A DNA stretch of 36,642 nucleotides from a bacterium. GTDB taxonomy: Bacteria; UBA9089; CG2-30-40-21; SBAY01. Of this stretch, positions 14,390 through 33,762 are shown one piece after another. Position 1 is the first letter of the stretch. Each line of letters opens with the position of its first letter. The notes beneath the pieces were generated by a model. That model had not been told where the DNA came from, did not search any database, and saw only the letters and a program-made list of their open reading frames with translations. The position numbers and the translations under genes were made by a program. The stretch is from positions 1 through 36,642 of the forward strand of contig JBFLYA010000008.1 in assembly GCA_040757115.1 (NCBI GenBank), in the 5' to 3' direction.

Positions 14390-14660
14390 GTAACTATTCA
14401 GCCACTGATTAACACGGATTAGCACGGATAAATACAGAGGTCCGAAGATAGAAGGCAGAGGACAGAAGACAGAGGTCATAGCCAGGTTGTCCCCCGCTGG
14501 CGGGGGTTAGGGGGTGGAAATTTCCTCCACTGGCAGAGAATCAAGAAGGATAGAAGTAAAAGTCAGAAGGAGAAAAACACTTCAGCCTTCAGCCTAATTA
14601 CGGACACGAATTACGAATTTTCAGTGTTTCATCCGTGTCCATCTGTGGCTGAATAATTAC
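14390..14660 (-). mobile_element. Family-1 TIR element, copy B (with internal extra segment)
   Basis: The 271-bp element lies in the convergent gap between lpxC and the giant secreted-protein gene. It starts GTAACTATTCAGCCACTG, ends GTGGCTGAATAATTAC and is in reverse orientation relative to copy A. The heptamer array is about five units (14441-14475). It is followed by an added hairpin segment CCCCCGCTGGCGGGGG (14491-14506). The flanking octamers do not match, so no target duplication remains. Its right end lies 4 bases from the stop codon of the giant gene. Confidence 0.8.
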
Positions 14661-14664
14661 TTCT

Positions 14665-21720: not shown

Positions 21721-21749
21721 TTGACAAAGATAGAAGTTTAGTATATACT
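21721..21749 (+). promoter_or_regulatory. Consensus promoter of the PD-(D/E)XK nuclease gene
   Basis: TTGACA (21721-21726), 17-base spacer, TATACT (21744-21749), then only five bases before tandem ATG codons at 21755 and 21758. Transcription should begin on the start codons. Confidence 0.75.
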
Positions 21750-21754
21750 CATAG

Positions 21755-22732
21755 ATGATGAAGAAGAAATGGCATCCGTATTTCTCAAATGTATTAAAAC
21801 ATCTACTCGAACCTAAAGGCTTTACGGTTGAAACAGAGGTTGAGGTTGGCAAAATGCCATTAAGAATAGATATTGTGGTCATTAAAAAGGGCAAGGATGC
21901 GGATGTTAAATCTTTACCTCTTGTATTCCAATCATTTACTGATTATAATGTTATTGAATATAAATCACCTGGGGATAGATTCACCCGGAATGATTTTGAC
22001 CGATTATTTGCTTATGTGCTATTATTTAAGATAAAAAAGAATATAGAATGGCGAAGACAAATAAATGTTTATGCACTTTTAAGCGGTGGTATAAAGGGGA
22101 TAGAGGATTATATTCGTGGTAATGGGCATAAACTGGCAAAGATAAAGGAAGGGCTTTATTTTGCGGATTTTGGGTTTAATTTTTATTTAATCCAGCTGGA
22201 TAGGTTAGAGGTGACTCCTGAAAACTATGGACTAATTCTTTTTACTTCAGGAGAATCCATTAGGGAATTAGCCAGGGGAATAGGTAGTAAAAGGGAAGAT
22301 ATATTAGAGGTAGAGTTAGTAGAGTTAATAGAAACAGGGTTGTATCTACATCCTGATGAATTTAAGGAGGAGGTGAAATTGATGCCACAGACATTAGCCG
22401 ATAGACCAGATATAATGAGAGAGCTTGTCGATATAGTAGGGATTGACAAATTTGTGCAAGGGATTGGAGAGGAGAAGGTAATTCGTAGCATTGGGGAAAA
22501 GAAGGTAATTCGCAGCATTGGGGAGAAAGAGGTAATTCGCAGCATTGGGGAGAAAGAGGTAATTCGCAGCATTGGGGAAAAAGAGGTAATTCGTAGCATT
22601 GGGGAAAAAGAGGTAATTCGCAGCATTGGGGAAAAAGAGGTAATCCGTACCATTGGGGAAGAGAATTTATTGAAAGATCTTATACATCTCCTTGGCAAAG
22701 AGAAGATAAAAAAGATGTTGAAGGAAAATTAA
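21755..22732 (+). CDS. PD-(D/E)XK nuclease-like protein with C-terminal nine-residue repeats
   Basis: A 325-aa protein. The N-terminal domain has the PD-(D/E)XK nuclease core: D39 in LRIDIVV and E68-x-K70 in NVIEYKSPGD. It resembles the Rpn/PDDEXK transposase-associated group, so DNA cleavage is likely but untested. A middle helical part (about 150-235) is followed by seven tandem copies of VIRSIGEKE (residues 242-304) and a basic tail. There is no Shine-Dalgarno at the start; the promoter abuts the tandem ATGs, so translation is probably leaderless. A much stronger ribosome site lies inside, before M210. It is divergent from the giant gene and convergent with proC. Confidence 0.75.
   Translation: MMKKKWHPYFSNVLKHLLEPKGFTVETEVEVGKMPLRIDIVVIKKGKDADVKSLPLVFQSFTDYNVIEYKSPGDRFTRNDFDRLFAYVLLFKIKKNIEWRRQINVYALLSGGIKGIEDYIRGNGHKLAKIKEGLYFADFGFNFYLIQLDRLEVTPENYGLILFTSGESIRELARGIGSKREDILEVELVELIETGLYLHPDEFKEEVKLMPQTLADRPDIMRELVDIVGIDKFVQGIGEEKVIRSIGEKKVIRSIGEKEVIRSIGEKEVIRSIGEKEVIRSIGEKEVIRSIGEKEVIRTIGEENLLKDLIHLLGKEKIKKMLKEN
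22365..22384 (+). promoter_or_regulatory. Strong internal ribosome binding site and in-frame ATG in the nuclease gene
   Basis: AAGGAGGAGGTGA (22364-22376) matches the anti-Shine-Dalgarno almost fully. Five bases later comes ATG (22382-22384), in frame with the nuclease (M210). A product from here would be 116 aa containing only the C-terminal region with the nine-residue repeats. The main start of the gene has no such site. Confidence 0.55.
22478..22666 (+). repeat. Seven 27-bp tandem repeats encoding VIRSIGEKE
   Basis: Seven direct units of exactly 27 bp, each starting GTAATTCG(T/C)AGCATTGGG. The first differs at the end (KK), and the last is degenerate (VIRTIGEEN). Units are nearly identical at DNA level, so copy number is probably unstable but always in frame. 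Confidence 0.95.
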
Positions 22733-22740
22733 GAAAATTA

Positions 22741-22917
22741 GTAACTATTCAGCCACTGATTAACACGGATTAGCACGGATGAATAGCAGAGGGCAGAAGG
22801 CAGAGGGCAGAGGACAACAGGAGAAAAACCCTTCAGCCTGATTACGGACACGGATACCGGACACGATTCAGGAATTTTCAGTGTTTCATCCGTGTTCATC
22901 TGTGGCTGAATAATTAC
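22741..22917 (-). mobile_element. Family-1 TIR element, copy C, overlapping the proC stop codon
   Basis: The 177-bp element starts GTAACTATTCAGCCACTG and ends GTGGCTGAATAATTAC, in the same orientation as copy B. It has four heptamers of GCAGAGG type (22786-22813). It fills the convergent gap between the nuclease gene (stop 8 bases away) and proC. The outermost bases of its right terminus (minus strand GTAA) supply the TAA stop of proC. The flanking octamers do not match, so no target duplication is visible. Confidence 0.85.
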
Positions 22918-23735
22918 TCTAATCTTAATTCTTTTGCCCGATTATTTGCGGCGGTGACTGCCTGGATAAATGCCGAGCGGATTCCTTTTTCTTCTAAGAC
23001 ATTTAGTGCAGAAATGGTTGCTCCACCTGGTGAAGTAACCTTATCTCGTAAAACCGCTGGATGTTCAGAAGTCTGTTTGAGCATTTTAATTGCTCCTTCT
23101 ATCGTTTCAATCGTTAAGGTTAAAGATGTATCTCGCGGTAGTCCTACCGATACGCCTGCATCGGTCAAGACCTCAACGATAGTAAAGAGATATGCAGGAC
23201 CACAGCCCGATAATGCTGTAACCGCCTCCATTAAAACCTCTTTGACGACCACGACCTTTCCTACCGCTTCAAATATGGCTTTGACTAACTCCAAATCCTG
23301 CGTATCTGCATACCTTCCTTTACAAATACCCGCCATACCCTGCCCGACTAAAACTGGTGTATTTGGCATCACACGGATTACTGAAATCTCTATATTAAAT
23401 TTAGATTCAATAAATTTTGTGGTAATCCCCGCGGCGATAGAAATAATCTTTTGCTCGGGTTTTATAATCTCGGAGATTTCAACCAAAACCTCCGGCATTA
23501 TCTGAGGTTTAATTGATAAGATAATAATATCTGCCCATCTGATACCTTCTTTATTATCACTTGTTCCGTTTATACCTAACTCTTCTTTAAAAAATTCAAG
23601 TTGTTTTAAGTTAACATCACAGACCAGGAGATTATTCTTTTCAATTAAATCTATCTTTAATATTCCTCTGATTAATGCTTCAGCCATATTCCCGGCGCCA
23701 ATAAAAACTAATTTCTTCCCTTTTAACAACTCCAT
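22914..23735 (-). CDS. proC: Pyrroline-5-carboxylate reductase
   Basis: The last step of proline synthesis: NAD(P)H reduction of 1-pyrroline-5-carboxylate, in the cytoplasm. The 273-aa length is normal. The Rossmann motif VFIGAGNMAEALIRG is at about residues 10-24. Further signatures are MPNTPVLVGQGMAGI and the C-terminal LRDKVTSPGGATISAL. GGGGAAAG precedes ATG. It lies 9 bases downstream of the FN3 protein gene on the same strand, probably sharing its promoter at 26398-26426. The stop codon is formed by the end of a mobile element, so the original C-terminus may have differed by a few residues. Confidence 0.96.
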   Translation of the reverse strand: MELLKGKKLVFIGAGNMAEALIRGILKIDLIEKNNLLVCDVNLKQLEFFKEELGINGTSDNKEGIRWADIIILSIKPQIMPEVLVEISEIIKPEQKIISIAAGITTKFIESKFNIEISVIRVMPNTPVLVGQGMAGICKGRYADTQDLELVKAIFEAVGKVVVVKEVLMEAVTALSGCGPAYLFTIVEVLTDAGVSVGLPRDTSLTLTIETIEGAIKMLKQTSEHPAVLRDKVTSPGGATISALNVLEEKGIRSAFIQAVTAANNRAKELRLE

Positions 23736-28390: not shown

Positions 28391-29317
28391 ATGGAGATAA
28401 CAAATCCACATGATAGTTTCTTCAAAGAGATATTTTCAAAGAAAGAGAATGCATCTGATTTTATCAATAGCATTTTACCGGATGTTCTTAAGAAAAACCT
28501 TGATTTATCAACTTTGGAATTGGATAACAACTCTTATGTTAATGAGGAGTTACAAGAGAATTTTTCAGACATAGTTTATAATTGTGTTTACAAAAATAAG
28601 CATAAGATAAAGATTTCGCTTTTATTTGAACATAAAAGCAAGGTAGTTAAATACCCACATTTACAACTTTTGAAGTATATGTTGAGGATATGGGAGACAA
28701 ATATCAAACAGAAGGAGGGTTTAATTCCCGTAGTTTCCCTTATTTTTTATCATGGTAAAAACAGATGGGTATTAAAGGATTTATCAGCTTATTTTAAAGG
28801 GATAGACGAGGTATTAATTCGTTATATTCCTGGGTTTAATTATTTATTGACAGATTTATCGAATTATAGTGATGAAGATTTAAGGGAGAGGGTGTTTTTT
28901 AATGTTAGTTTAAGGGTTGCCTTTTTAGTGATGAAGAATATATACGATGAGAGAAGATTGCGAGAACATATAGAGGATTTTCTACAGATAGGTCGGATGT
29001 ATTACGAGGAGGAGAAAGGTTTAAAGTTTTTAGAGGCAGTGATAAGATATATTTACAACAGCACAGAGATTAAACCAGAGGAAGTGCTCGAAACAGTTAA
29101 GAAGATTTCAGAAAAGGGGGGTGAAATCACAATGACTACAGCCATGAGATTAAGGAAAGAAGGATTGCAAGAAGGATTGCAACAAGGATTGCAACGATTA
29201 ATAGAGGTAGCTAAATCGATGTATAAAAAAGGGTTTAAGTTAGAGATGATTGCTGAAATAACCGGGCTTTCAGAAGAGGAAATAAAGAAGGTTGTAAGAC
29301 TAGAGAATGAGAGATGA
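28391..29317 (+). CDS. Rpn-family recombination-promoting nuclease / putative transposase
   Basis: A 308-aa member of the Rpn (PDDEXK, transposase_31) family. It has the N-terminal family start NPHDSFFKEIF (residues 5-15) and a nuclease core with D60 in FSDIVY and E80-x-K82 in LLFEHKS. LSLIFYHG-type signature is present as VVSLIFYHGKNRW (about 118-130). The C-terminal part has EGLQEGLQQGLQ repeats and a helix-turn-helix-like AEITGLSEEEIKKV end. E. coli relatives cleave DNA, raise recombination and act as anti-phage toxins. GGAG lies 13 bases before the ATG, a weak site. A far better internal ribosome site precedes M248. The gene stands next to a regulator and a broken restriction-modification gene. 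Confidence 0.88.
   Translation: MEITNPHDSFFKEIFSKKENASDFINSILPDVLKKNLDLSTLELDNNSYVNEELQENFSDIVYNCVYKNKHKIKISLLFEHKSKVVKYPHLQLLKYMLRIWETNIKQKEGLIPVVSLIFYHGKNRWVLKDLSAYFKGIDEVLIRYIPGFNYLLTDLSNYSDEDLRERVFFNVSLRVAFLVMKNIYDERRLREHIEDFLQIGRMYYEEEKGLKFLEAVIRYIYNSTEIKPEEVLETVKKISEKGGEITMTTAMRLRKEGLQEGLQQGLQRLIEVAKSMYKKGFKLEMIAEITGLSEEEIKKVVRLENER
29116..29134 (+). promoter_or_regulatory. Internal ribosome binding site and in-frame ATG in the Rpn gene
   Basis: GGGGGGTGA (29116-29124), seven bases, ATG (29132-29134), in frame as M248. Translation from here gives a 61-aa C-terminal protein (29132-29317) with the GLQ repeats and the terminal helices. Published Rpn genes of enterobacteria encode such a short C-terminal protein as an antitoxin. 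Confidence 0.6.
29162..29197 (+). repeat. Three 12-bp tandem repeats in the Rpn C-terminal region
   Basis: GGATTGCAAGAA, GGATTGCAACAA, GGATTGCAACGA, encoding GLQE, GLQQ, GLQR. Such in-frame repeats are common in the C-termini of this family. Confidence 0.85.
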
Positions 29318-29446: not shown

Positions 29447-29461
29447 AGAGTCTGTTGACAC

Positions 29462-29489
29462 TTGAAAACCAATTTTGGTTAGGTATAAT
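29462..29489 (+). promoter_or_regulatory. Probable promoter of the regulator gene
   Basis: TTGAAA (29462-29467), 16-base spacer, TATAAT (29484-29489). A TTGACA at 29455 is too far from the -10 box. The ATG at 29509 leaves a leader of only about 13 bases with no ribosome site. Confidence 0.5.
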
Positions 29490-29508
29490 AATCGCAAATG
29501 GCAATAGT

Positions 29509-29763
29509 ATGTCTAAAGTTATTATAGTAAAATTATATTACAATGTCAAAGGAAATGTCAACCATTCAACCATTGTAAAAAATATTAAGAAATACCGAGC
29601 AAAGCGCTGTATCTCTCAAGACAAGCTGTCAAAACTTGCCAATATTACTTTGCACACAATCACTAAAATTGAATCAGGGACTACGCCAGATCCAAGAATT
29701 GAAACCGTCAAAAAAATAGCAGACGCTTTAGGCGTTAGCATTGATGATTTAATGAGAAACTAA
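29509..29763 (+). CDS. XRE/Cro-CI-type helix-turn-helix regulator
   Basis: A DNA-binding regulator of 84 aa from this start. The HTH_3 domain covers the last 62 residues: IVKNIKKYRAKRCISQDKL, then SKLANITLHTITKIESG as the helix-turn-helix, then TVKKIADALGVSIDDLMRN. The start at 29509 is chosen because an upstream TTG at 29455 overlaps the promoter. It lies 2 bases ahead of the restriction-modification remnant, as controller proteins of such systems often do. Its target is unknown. Confidence 0.82.
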   Translation: MSKVIIVKLYYNVKGNVNHSTIVKNIKKYRAKRCISQDKLSKLANITLHTITKIESGTTPDPRIETVKKIADALGVSIDDLMRN

Positions 29764-29765
29764 AT

Positions 29766-30515
29766 ATGACACAATATAAACCTTCAGAAGAATACATTAC
29801 AACAGGAGAACAAAAAGGGCTTATTCTCCGAGAAGGTAGCAAAGTTGAATATCAAACCACCGGCAAAAGTTATAATTTTTCTGACCCAGAAGAAAAGGTC
29901 AGAGCGTCCTTTTATGTTGAACTTATACAAAAATATAAATATCCGGAAAAACGATTAGATACCGAAGTTGTTGTCCCTCGCAGAAAACCATCTGATTCAG
30001 CCGATATTGTTGTTTATGAAGATGACGAACAGAAAAAACCTTATATCGTAGTTGAGTGTAAAAAAGATGATATTTCTCAATCCGAAATAAAGCAGGCAGT
30101 TGAACAAGCTTTTGGCAATGCTAATTCTCTCAGGGCAAAATATGCGATTGTTGTTGCTGGCAATGTTCGCATCGCTTTTGATGTTGCTGGTTTTAACCCG
30201 CAAGAACGGGACAAAAATATTATTTCTGACATTCCTGTCCGCTACGGGAAAATTACAAAATATAAATACAAAAAGGGCGATGAAACATGGGATTTACAGC
30301 CAGCCGATTTAAAAGCGCTTTAAGATAAATTTCAGCAGTGCCAGGATATTTTATGGGAAGGCGGAAAAGGAAACCCAGCAGAAGCGTTTGATGAAATGAG
30401 CAAGTTAATGTTTTGCAAAATTCAGGATGAGCGATTTGTTACCGAGATTGATGAGTATTATAAATTTCAGATTGGGACACACGAAAGCAGGAGAACTATT
30501 GGGGTCAGACCGTGA
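29766..30515 (+). pseudogene. Truncated restriction-modification protein (HSDR_N nuclease domain plus start of an N-6 methylase)
   Basis: The first 185 residues form a type I restriction HSDR_N nuclease domain, with D80 in SADIVV and E97-x-K99 in YIVVECKK. Reading is stopped by TAA at 30321-30323. The same frame then continues for 63 residues (CQDILWEGGKGNPAEAFDEM...) that resemble the helical N-terminal part of N-6 DNA methylases, up to TGA at 30513. The palindromic element at 30498-30565 interrupts it. Full-length relatives would need several hundred more residues (methylase motifs NPPY etc.), which are absent. A residual 185-aa nuclease-domain protein could still be made. Confidence 0.8.
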
Positions 30516-33519: not shown

Positions 33520-33588
33520 GTAACCGTTCAGGTAGTCCTTTACCGCAGAGACGCAGAGGAACAGAGAAGACATAGAAATAAATTATAT
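33520..33588 (+). repeat. Left-end fragment of family 2
   Basis: GTAACCGTTCAGG at 33520 continues with ACCGCAGAGACGCAGAGG, matching the left part of the element at 1760-1994. The right half is missing, and family-1 copy D starts at 33589. Confidence 0.8.
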
Positions 33589-33762
33589 GTAACTATTCAG
33601 CCACAGATGGACACAGATGAAACACTGAAAATTCGTGAATCGTGTCCGTTTTCCGTGTCCGTAATTAGGCTGAAGGTTTTTCCACCTATTGTCCTCTGCC
33701 TTCTGCCCTCTGCCTTTTGTCCTCTACTATTTATCCGTGCTAATCAGTGGCTGAATAGTTAC
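33589..33762 (+). mobile_element. Family-1 TIR element, copy D
   Basis: The 174-bp element starts GTAACTATTCAGCCACAG and ends GTGGCTGAATAGTTAC, in the same orientation as copy A. It has five heptamers of CCTCTGC type (33693-33727). The flanking octamers differ, so no duplication remains. It ends two bases from the stop codon of the glutamate-synthase-like gene. Confidence 0.85.

Follow-up and report, generated by a model that had tools for sequence, protein, structure and literature searches.

Can one bacterial gene encode a nuclease toxin and, from a second start in the same reading frame, the antitoxin that restrains it? Such an arrangement was described for Rpn (recombination-promoting nuclease), in which the gene of the toxin RpnL also encodes, within itself, the antitoxin RpnS (Zhong et al. 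2023, PMC10327210). RpnS is a separately translated tail that blocks the toxicity of RpnL, and the number of repeats sets the specificity of the pairing (PMC10327210). Its authors knew of no earlier case of an antitoxin located within the gene of its toxin, and predicted further intragenic regulators (PMC10327210). The same question is raised by a gene in the stretch of 36,642 nucleotides analysed here, called the window in the following. An original prediction, made from the sequence, had proposed that this nuclease gene uses an internal start to produce a short second protein, and that this layout is shared by the standalone nuclease genes of the window, two of two. The features of the gene are collected in Table 1.

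Table 1. Features of the nuclease gene and its surroundings, in window coordinates.
Feature	Coordinates	Strand	Evidence
Predicted promoter: -35 TTGACA 21721-21726, 17-nt spacer, -10 TATACT 21744-21749	21721..21749	+	Scan score 11/12
Full-length gene (predicted toxin form), 325 aa	21755..22732	+	ORF, multicopy family, dN/dS
N-terminal PD-(D/E)XK-like nuclease part, residues 1-209	21755..22381	+	AF2 core, PDB folds, HSDR_N_2
Nuclease core residues D39, E68, K70	21869-21871; 21956-21958; 21962-21964	+	
Predicted internal Shine-Dalgarno site AAGGAGGAGGTGA	22364..22376	+	Anti-SD energy, conservation, GAG bias
Internal reading frame, M210 to stop, 116 aa, proposed antitoxin	22382..22732	+	Start-column conservation, open frame
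27-bp tandem repeat (9-aa VIRSIGEKE), 7 units	22473..22665	+	Repeat finding, 7.1 copies

Predicted internal translation start

The putative Shine-Dalgarno (SD) site AAGGAGGAGGTGA ends 5 nt ahead of an ATG at 22382-22384, which is in frame and encodes M210; both the coordinates and the frame of this arrangement were verified. Its pairing energy with the 16S tail was -13.4 kcal/mol, ranking first among the 122 internal in-frame ATGs of the window genes and exceeding that of every annotated gene start in the window (best start -10.8). The second rank was held by M248 of the Rpn gene in the window (-11.7 in the anti-SD pairing). At the first ATG of the nuclease gene (21755) the anti-SD score was +0.7, which bears out the earlier claim that the gene itself starts without a ribosome site. 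Also as proposed, the 116-aa product expected from M210 would include the 27-bp repeat and exclude the nuclease core. As regards an internal promoter for a short transcript, a feature of Rpn, promoter-like sites upstream of M210 were weak (21996-22025, 10/12), and their total count was near the shuffled expectation. The count of two of two nuclease genes had to be corrected to two of three: in the third, a standalone HSDR_N_2 gene at 29766-30323, the anti-SD scan of the window detected no comparable internal SD site.

The original prediction had turned on the conservation of the site in homologues, and the site was kept. SD and start codon were present in all 16 internal sites that were read, a count that represents fewer independent lineages (about 5-6), because several copies are recent paralogues, those of the genome of the window (G000) and of G001 being close to each other. 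The start codon was ATG in all cases except the orthologous pair L035/L041, where it was GTG, itself a start codon. The SD also persisted where the peptide changes, as in FKEEVKLM, FKEVRIM and FKEGVRLM, and in the distant MKEVLVM, QLEGIGM and QLEGVSM. In G008 one codon was deleted (EEV to EV) and AAGGAGGT remained, correctly spaced. At 19-25% identity, homologues again had an SD and an ATG at the aligned position (AAGGAGGTCTTAGTG-ATG in G013:C154, TTGGAGGGAATTGGT-ATG in G013:C198 and TTGGAGGGAGTATCT-ATG in G013:C412), and the internal start column was nearly invariant down to 19% identity. We concluded that a translation start at M210 is well supported by these comparisons.

Predicted promoter and first start

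The promoter motif TTGACA-N17-TATACT ends 5 nt ahead of the first ATG of the gene. The same motif followed by an ATG within 5-8 nt was found in 14 of the 14 listed family copies having a 5' end; a fifteenth copy, L048 (G003), has the same promoter with 11 nt to its ATG. Beyond about -45 on the upstream side the family loci have unrelated flanks, while the promoter is common to them. Because the promoter abuts the first ATG, the full-length mRNA is predicted to be leaderless, and this position would also account for the missing ribosome site.

In G000 the pattern TTGACA-N16-18-TATANT-N4-9-ATG occurred at 79 forward sites, compared with 0 for the reversed pattern. The lineage thus appears to make wide use of leaderless mRNAs, including for seemingly ordinary genes. 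A special link of leaderless starts with toxin genes in this genome was considered and rejected, since many of the 30 loci that were fetched precede ordinary-looking genes, as judged from the first residues. In a statement cited in PMC3898074, E. coli ribosomes work with lower efficiency on leaderless mRNAs. With a leaderless long form and an SD-started short form, the short form would therefore be better translated under normal conditions; that stress shifts the ratio of long to short form is speculation.

Nuclease part, family and distribution

The protein family had no model in Pfam, NCBIfam or PADLOC, and a weak match to HSDR_N_2 was obtained. The AF2 model of the full protein had moderate confidence for the nuclease and poor confidence for the tail. 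It showed a core of the order H-E-E-E-H-E with a pLDDT of about 80 for a large part of residues 11-170, for which the best meaningful PDB folds were XisH (2inb, 2okf) and EndoMS (5gke), all of them weak matches with E-values of 0.07-0.22 and 13-16% identity. This modelled core, together with the motif D39...E68-Y-K70, points to membership of the PD-(D/E)XK superfamily; one distant homologue group has S in place of E (SYK). In Rpn the tail is a dimerising three-helix bundle; the shortest tail of the present family, modelled separately, was helical, with a pLDDT of 58 and a pTM of 0.36.

About 7 family loci or fragments were found in the genome of the window and about as many in a species of the same genus. 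Copies or distant homologues were present in one species of the same family and in two of another family of the same phylum, and wider sampling of 386 relatives and 195 genomes of another phylum added one further genome, G259. No real match to the family was found among the plasmids, phages and viral contigs searched, and nothing convincing in the viral fold library. Two phage matches (Erwinia phage Era103) covered the low-complexity repeat region alone, at 34%, and were dismissed. Past about -45 on one side of the gene and about +10 on the other, the flanks of the loci are unrelated. Between copies the nuclease part had a dN/dS of 0.07-0.19, which indicates purifying selection, and between lineages dS exceeded 1, meaning that synonymous sites are saturated.

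The short frame as a separate unit

Several copies are arranged as if the short frame were a unit of its own. In L032 and L040 the segment comprising SD, start and first domain is doubled in frame, 132 nt apart. In G013:C198 a full gene is followed by two standalone short-frame copies, each of which begins at the internal start. In five copies the nuclease part is lost or broken through insertions or deletions, but the SD and the start are retained and the short frame is open: G000:C43, G000:C92, G001:C393, G008:C50 and G003:C22, the last cut by its contig end. Among these, G001:C393 is the orthologue of the intact gene in the window and G008:C50 is an orphan tail. In G259:C91, from another phylum, the nuclease has been lost through a deletion that stops immediately short of the SD, and the short frame has been kept. 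The short frame of this copy (L075/L069) carries TPEERLKGMTPEEILK-type repeats, another sequence at the same place.

Breakage on the nuclease side in five of five copies was rejected as significant alone, as (627/975)^5 is about 0.11; what gives the broken copies weight is the open short frame and the occurrence in a second phylum. Polarised changes between L046 and L047 were too weak to prove selection after loss of the nuclease. One distant copy, G013:C542, consists of a nuclease without a tail, and the tail may be unassembled because the copy lies at a contig end. The orphan in G008 (L047, 614-826, minus strand) is a short frame of 71 aa with 2 repeats and its own SD, flanked by the genes of a histidine kinase and a response regulator.

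The 27-bp repeat varied from 2 to 7 units between copies. The number also differed between orthologues, with 7 units in the window gene versus 3 in its G001 counterpart, and 5 in G001:C308 versus 2 in G000:C92. An antisense ORF at 22225-22698 was dismissed as a by-product of the repeat.

Putative mobile elements and neighbouring genes

One broken nuclease gene copy, in L042, contains a GxxExxY gene (TIGR04256) flanked by inverted ends (GTAACCGTTCA...CACCGCAGAGACGCAGAG / CTCTGCGTCTCTGCGGTGAACGGTTAC; L042 2596-3065, plus strand), and GxxExxY was also seen within the broken copy of G003 (L049). Related gene-less forms of the L042 element occur in L034 and L035, and shorter gene-less elements with the same or similar ends are dispersed; in the window, similar ends were found at 229-436, 14390-14661, 22741-22918 and 33574-33762. 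From these sequences the GxxExxY element appears to be mobile and to have MITE-like derivatives. Elsewhere in the window an HTH_3 regulator is followed by the standalone HSDR_N_2 (PD-(D/E)XK) gene (29455-30323 in all), near the Rpn gene.

Alternative readings

The internal start may be real and the short protein a structural or DNA-binding partner subunit needed to complete the nuclease complex, an explanation that we hold to be possible but unlikely. The tail is common to both products and predicted to be helical, and an internal-start helper has a precedent in Cas11d, which, as cited in PMC10327210, is made from within cas10d and assists the long form. An antitoxin or immunity protein would better fit the short frames that outlast the nuclease in the broken copies and in the L047 orphan, and the variation in repeat number parallels the specificity of Rpn.

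The SD-like stretch could also be incidental, if FKEEV were conserved for the protein and the full-length product alone were made. Synonymous recoding gave a median of -6 kcal, meaning that the Glu/Lys/Val-rich peptide makes an SD-like sequence fairly likely, and randomisation of synonymous codons yielded P values of 0.015 in the window copy and 0.01-0.27 in other copies, a test that is modest per lineage because the peptide itself favours such a sequence. The first rank among 122 ATGs speaks against chance, however, and so does the survival of the site through peptide changes and synonymous saturation. The Glu codons inside the SD site were GAG in 8 of 8 cases, compared with 51 of 96 in the remainder of these genes (Fisher P = 0.009), and the ATG was replaced by GTG alone. 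Tandem copies begin at the internal start, and the short frame is kept after nuclease loss. We consider an incidental site improbable.

Very improbable, in our view, is a selfish, mobile single-gene nuclease spread by recombination, with tail and repeats for DNA targeting, broken copies that represent decay and intact short frames too young to have decayed: the gene is multicopy with unrelated flanks at each locus, and several broken copies are closely related to intact ones (L035 versus L041), but the nuclease part is under strong purifying selection, every broken copy in the two phyla lost the nuclease side with the tail left open, the unit itself showed no obvious terminal repeats, and the internal start would be left unexplained.

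Proposed mechanism

We favour, with moderate confidence, an Rpn-like gene-within-gene module composed of a full-length nuclease toxin and a short C-terminal antitoxin. A sigma-70-type promoter abutting the first ATG would give rise to the 325-aa protein from a leaderless mRNA, and on the same mRNA the very strong SD and the M210 start would yield the 116-aa tail as a separate and probably more abundant protein. The full-length nuclease would be harmful when free. The short tail, which would share the oligomerisation segment, may bind the tail of the full-length protein and keep it inactive; we infer its antitoxin role by analogy with RpnL/RpnS. The variable number of 9-aa repeats could decide which short protein fits which nuclease, so that several paralogues in one cell would not cross-neutralise. 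Defence against phage or other invading DNA would be the likely pay-off. As regards the proposal of a toxin and antitoxin within one gene, the internal-start layout was thus upheld, whereas the two roles are suggested by the analogy with Rpn.

More tentatively, the family could be independent of Rpn and combine the same design and repeat-set pairing specificity with a translational switch between a leaderless toxin and an SD-started antitoxin; we think this possible, with rather low confidence. If it is true, the balance would shift towards the toxin whenever leaderless translation is favoured, and the split between leaderless and SD starts would be a route to controlling the toxin:antitoxin ratio. 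A second, sequence-unrelated family with the same layout and variation in repeat number would establish the design as a recurrent solution, and a conserved SD and start ahead of a repeat-bearing tail would serve as a signature for finding others.

Comparison with known systems

The nearest meaningful folds of the nuclease part belong to XisH, the fdxN element excision controlling factor, and to EndoMS. To our knowledge neither has a C-terminal repeat tail or an internal start.

The leaderless toxin-antitoxin modules of Mycobacterium tuberculosis (PMC3898074) resemble the present case in having a toxin-antitoxin-type gene on a leaderless mRNA. They are two-gene modules, whereas here a single gene would have a leaderless long form and an SD-started short form, and in this genome leaderless promoters serve ordinary genes too.

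Classical Rpn (COG5464, PF04754/TIGR01784) is represented in the genome of the window by four full and two partial copies. The Rpn gene in the window (28391-29317) has an internal SD (AAGGGGGGTGAAATCACAATG, M248) and a short GLQEGLQQGLQ repeat, and its M248 site corresponds to the known RpnL/RpnS arrangement. The two families share a PD-(D/E)XK-like N-terminus, a strong internal SD and start before a small helical tail, a variable-copy repeat array in that tail, and a multicopy, patchy occurrence with copies that have lost one part. Standalone tail copies downstream of full genes are known from rpnC and rpnE (PMC10327210) and were found here in G013:C198. In contrast, the repeats are 9 aa long here and 4 aa in Rpn, and they begin about 31 residues past the internal start, compared with 8-20 in Rpn. 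The Rpn genes of G000 also differ in having a promoter further upstream, a leader and, in 2 of 4, a clear SD, whereas the gene studied here is predicted to be leaderless.

The family models recognise Rpn by its N-terminal YhgA-like domain. No match of the protein to PF04754 or TIGR01784 was obtained even at an E-value of 1, compared with 6e-43 for the Rpn gene in the window, and hhalign of the family against Rpn gave a probability of 0.1%, with no profile-profile similarity. Pfam, NCBIfam and hhalign thus agree with the original prediction that the family is unrelated to Rpn by sequence; it may still be a very distant cousin within the PD-(D/E)XK fold. By these comparisons the family is Rpn-like in layout and is not assigned to Rpn by family models or profile comparison. 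The wider claim of a general strategy beyond Rpn gains from it a second internal-start, Rpn-like family, and so far extends to this one more family.
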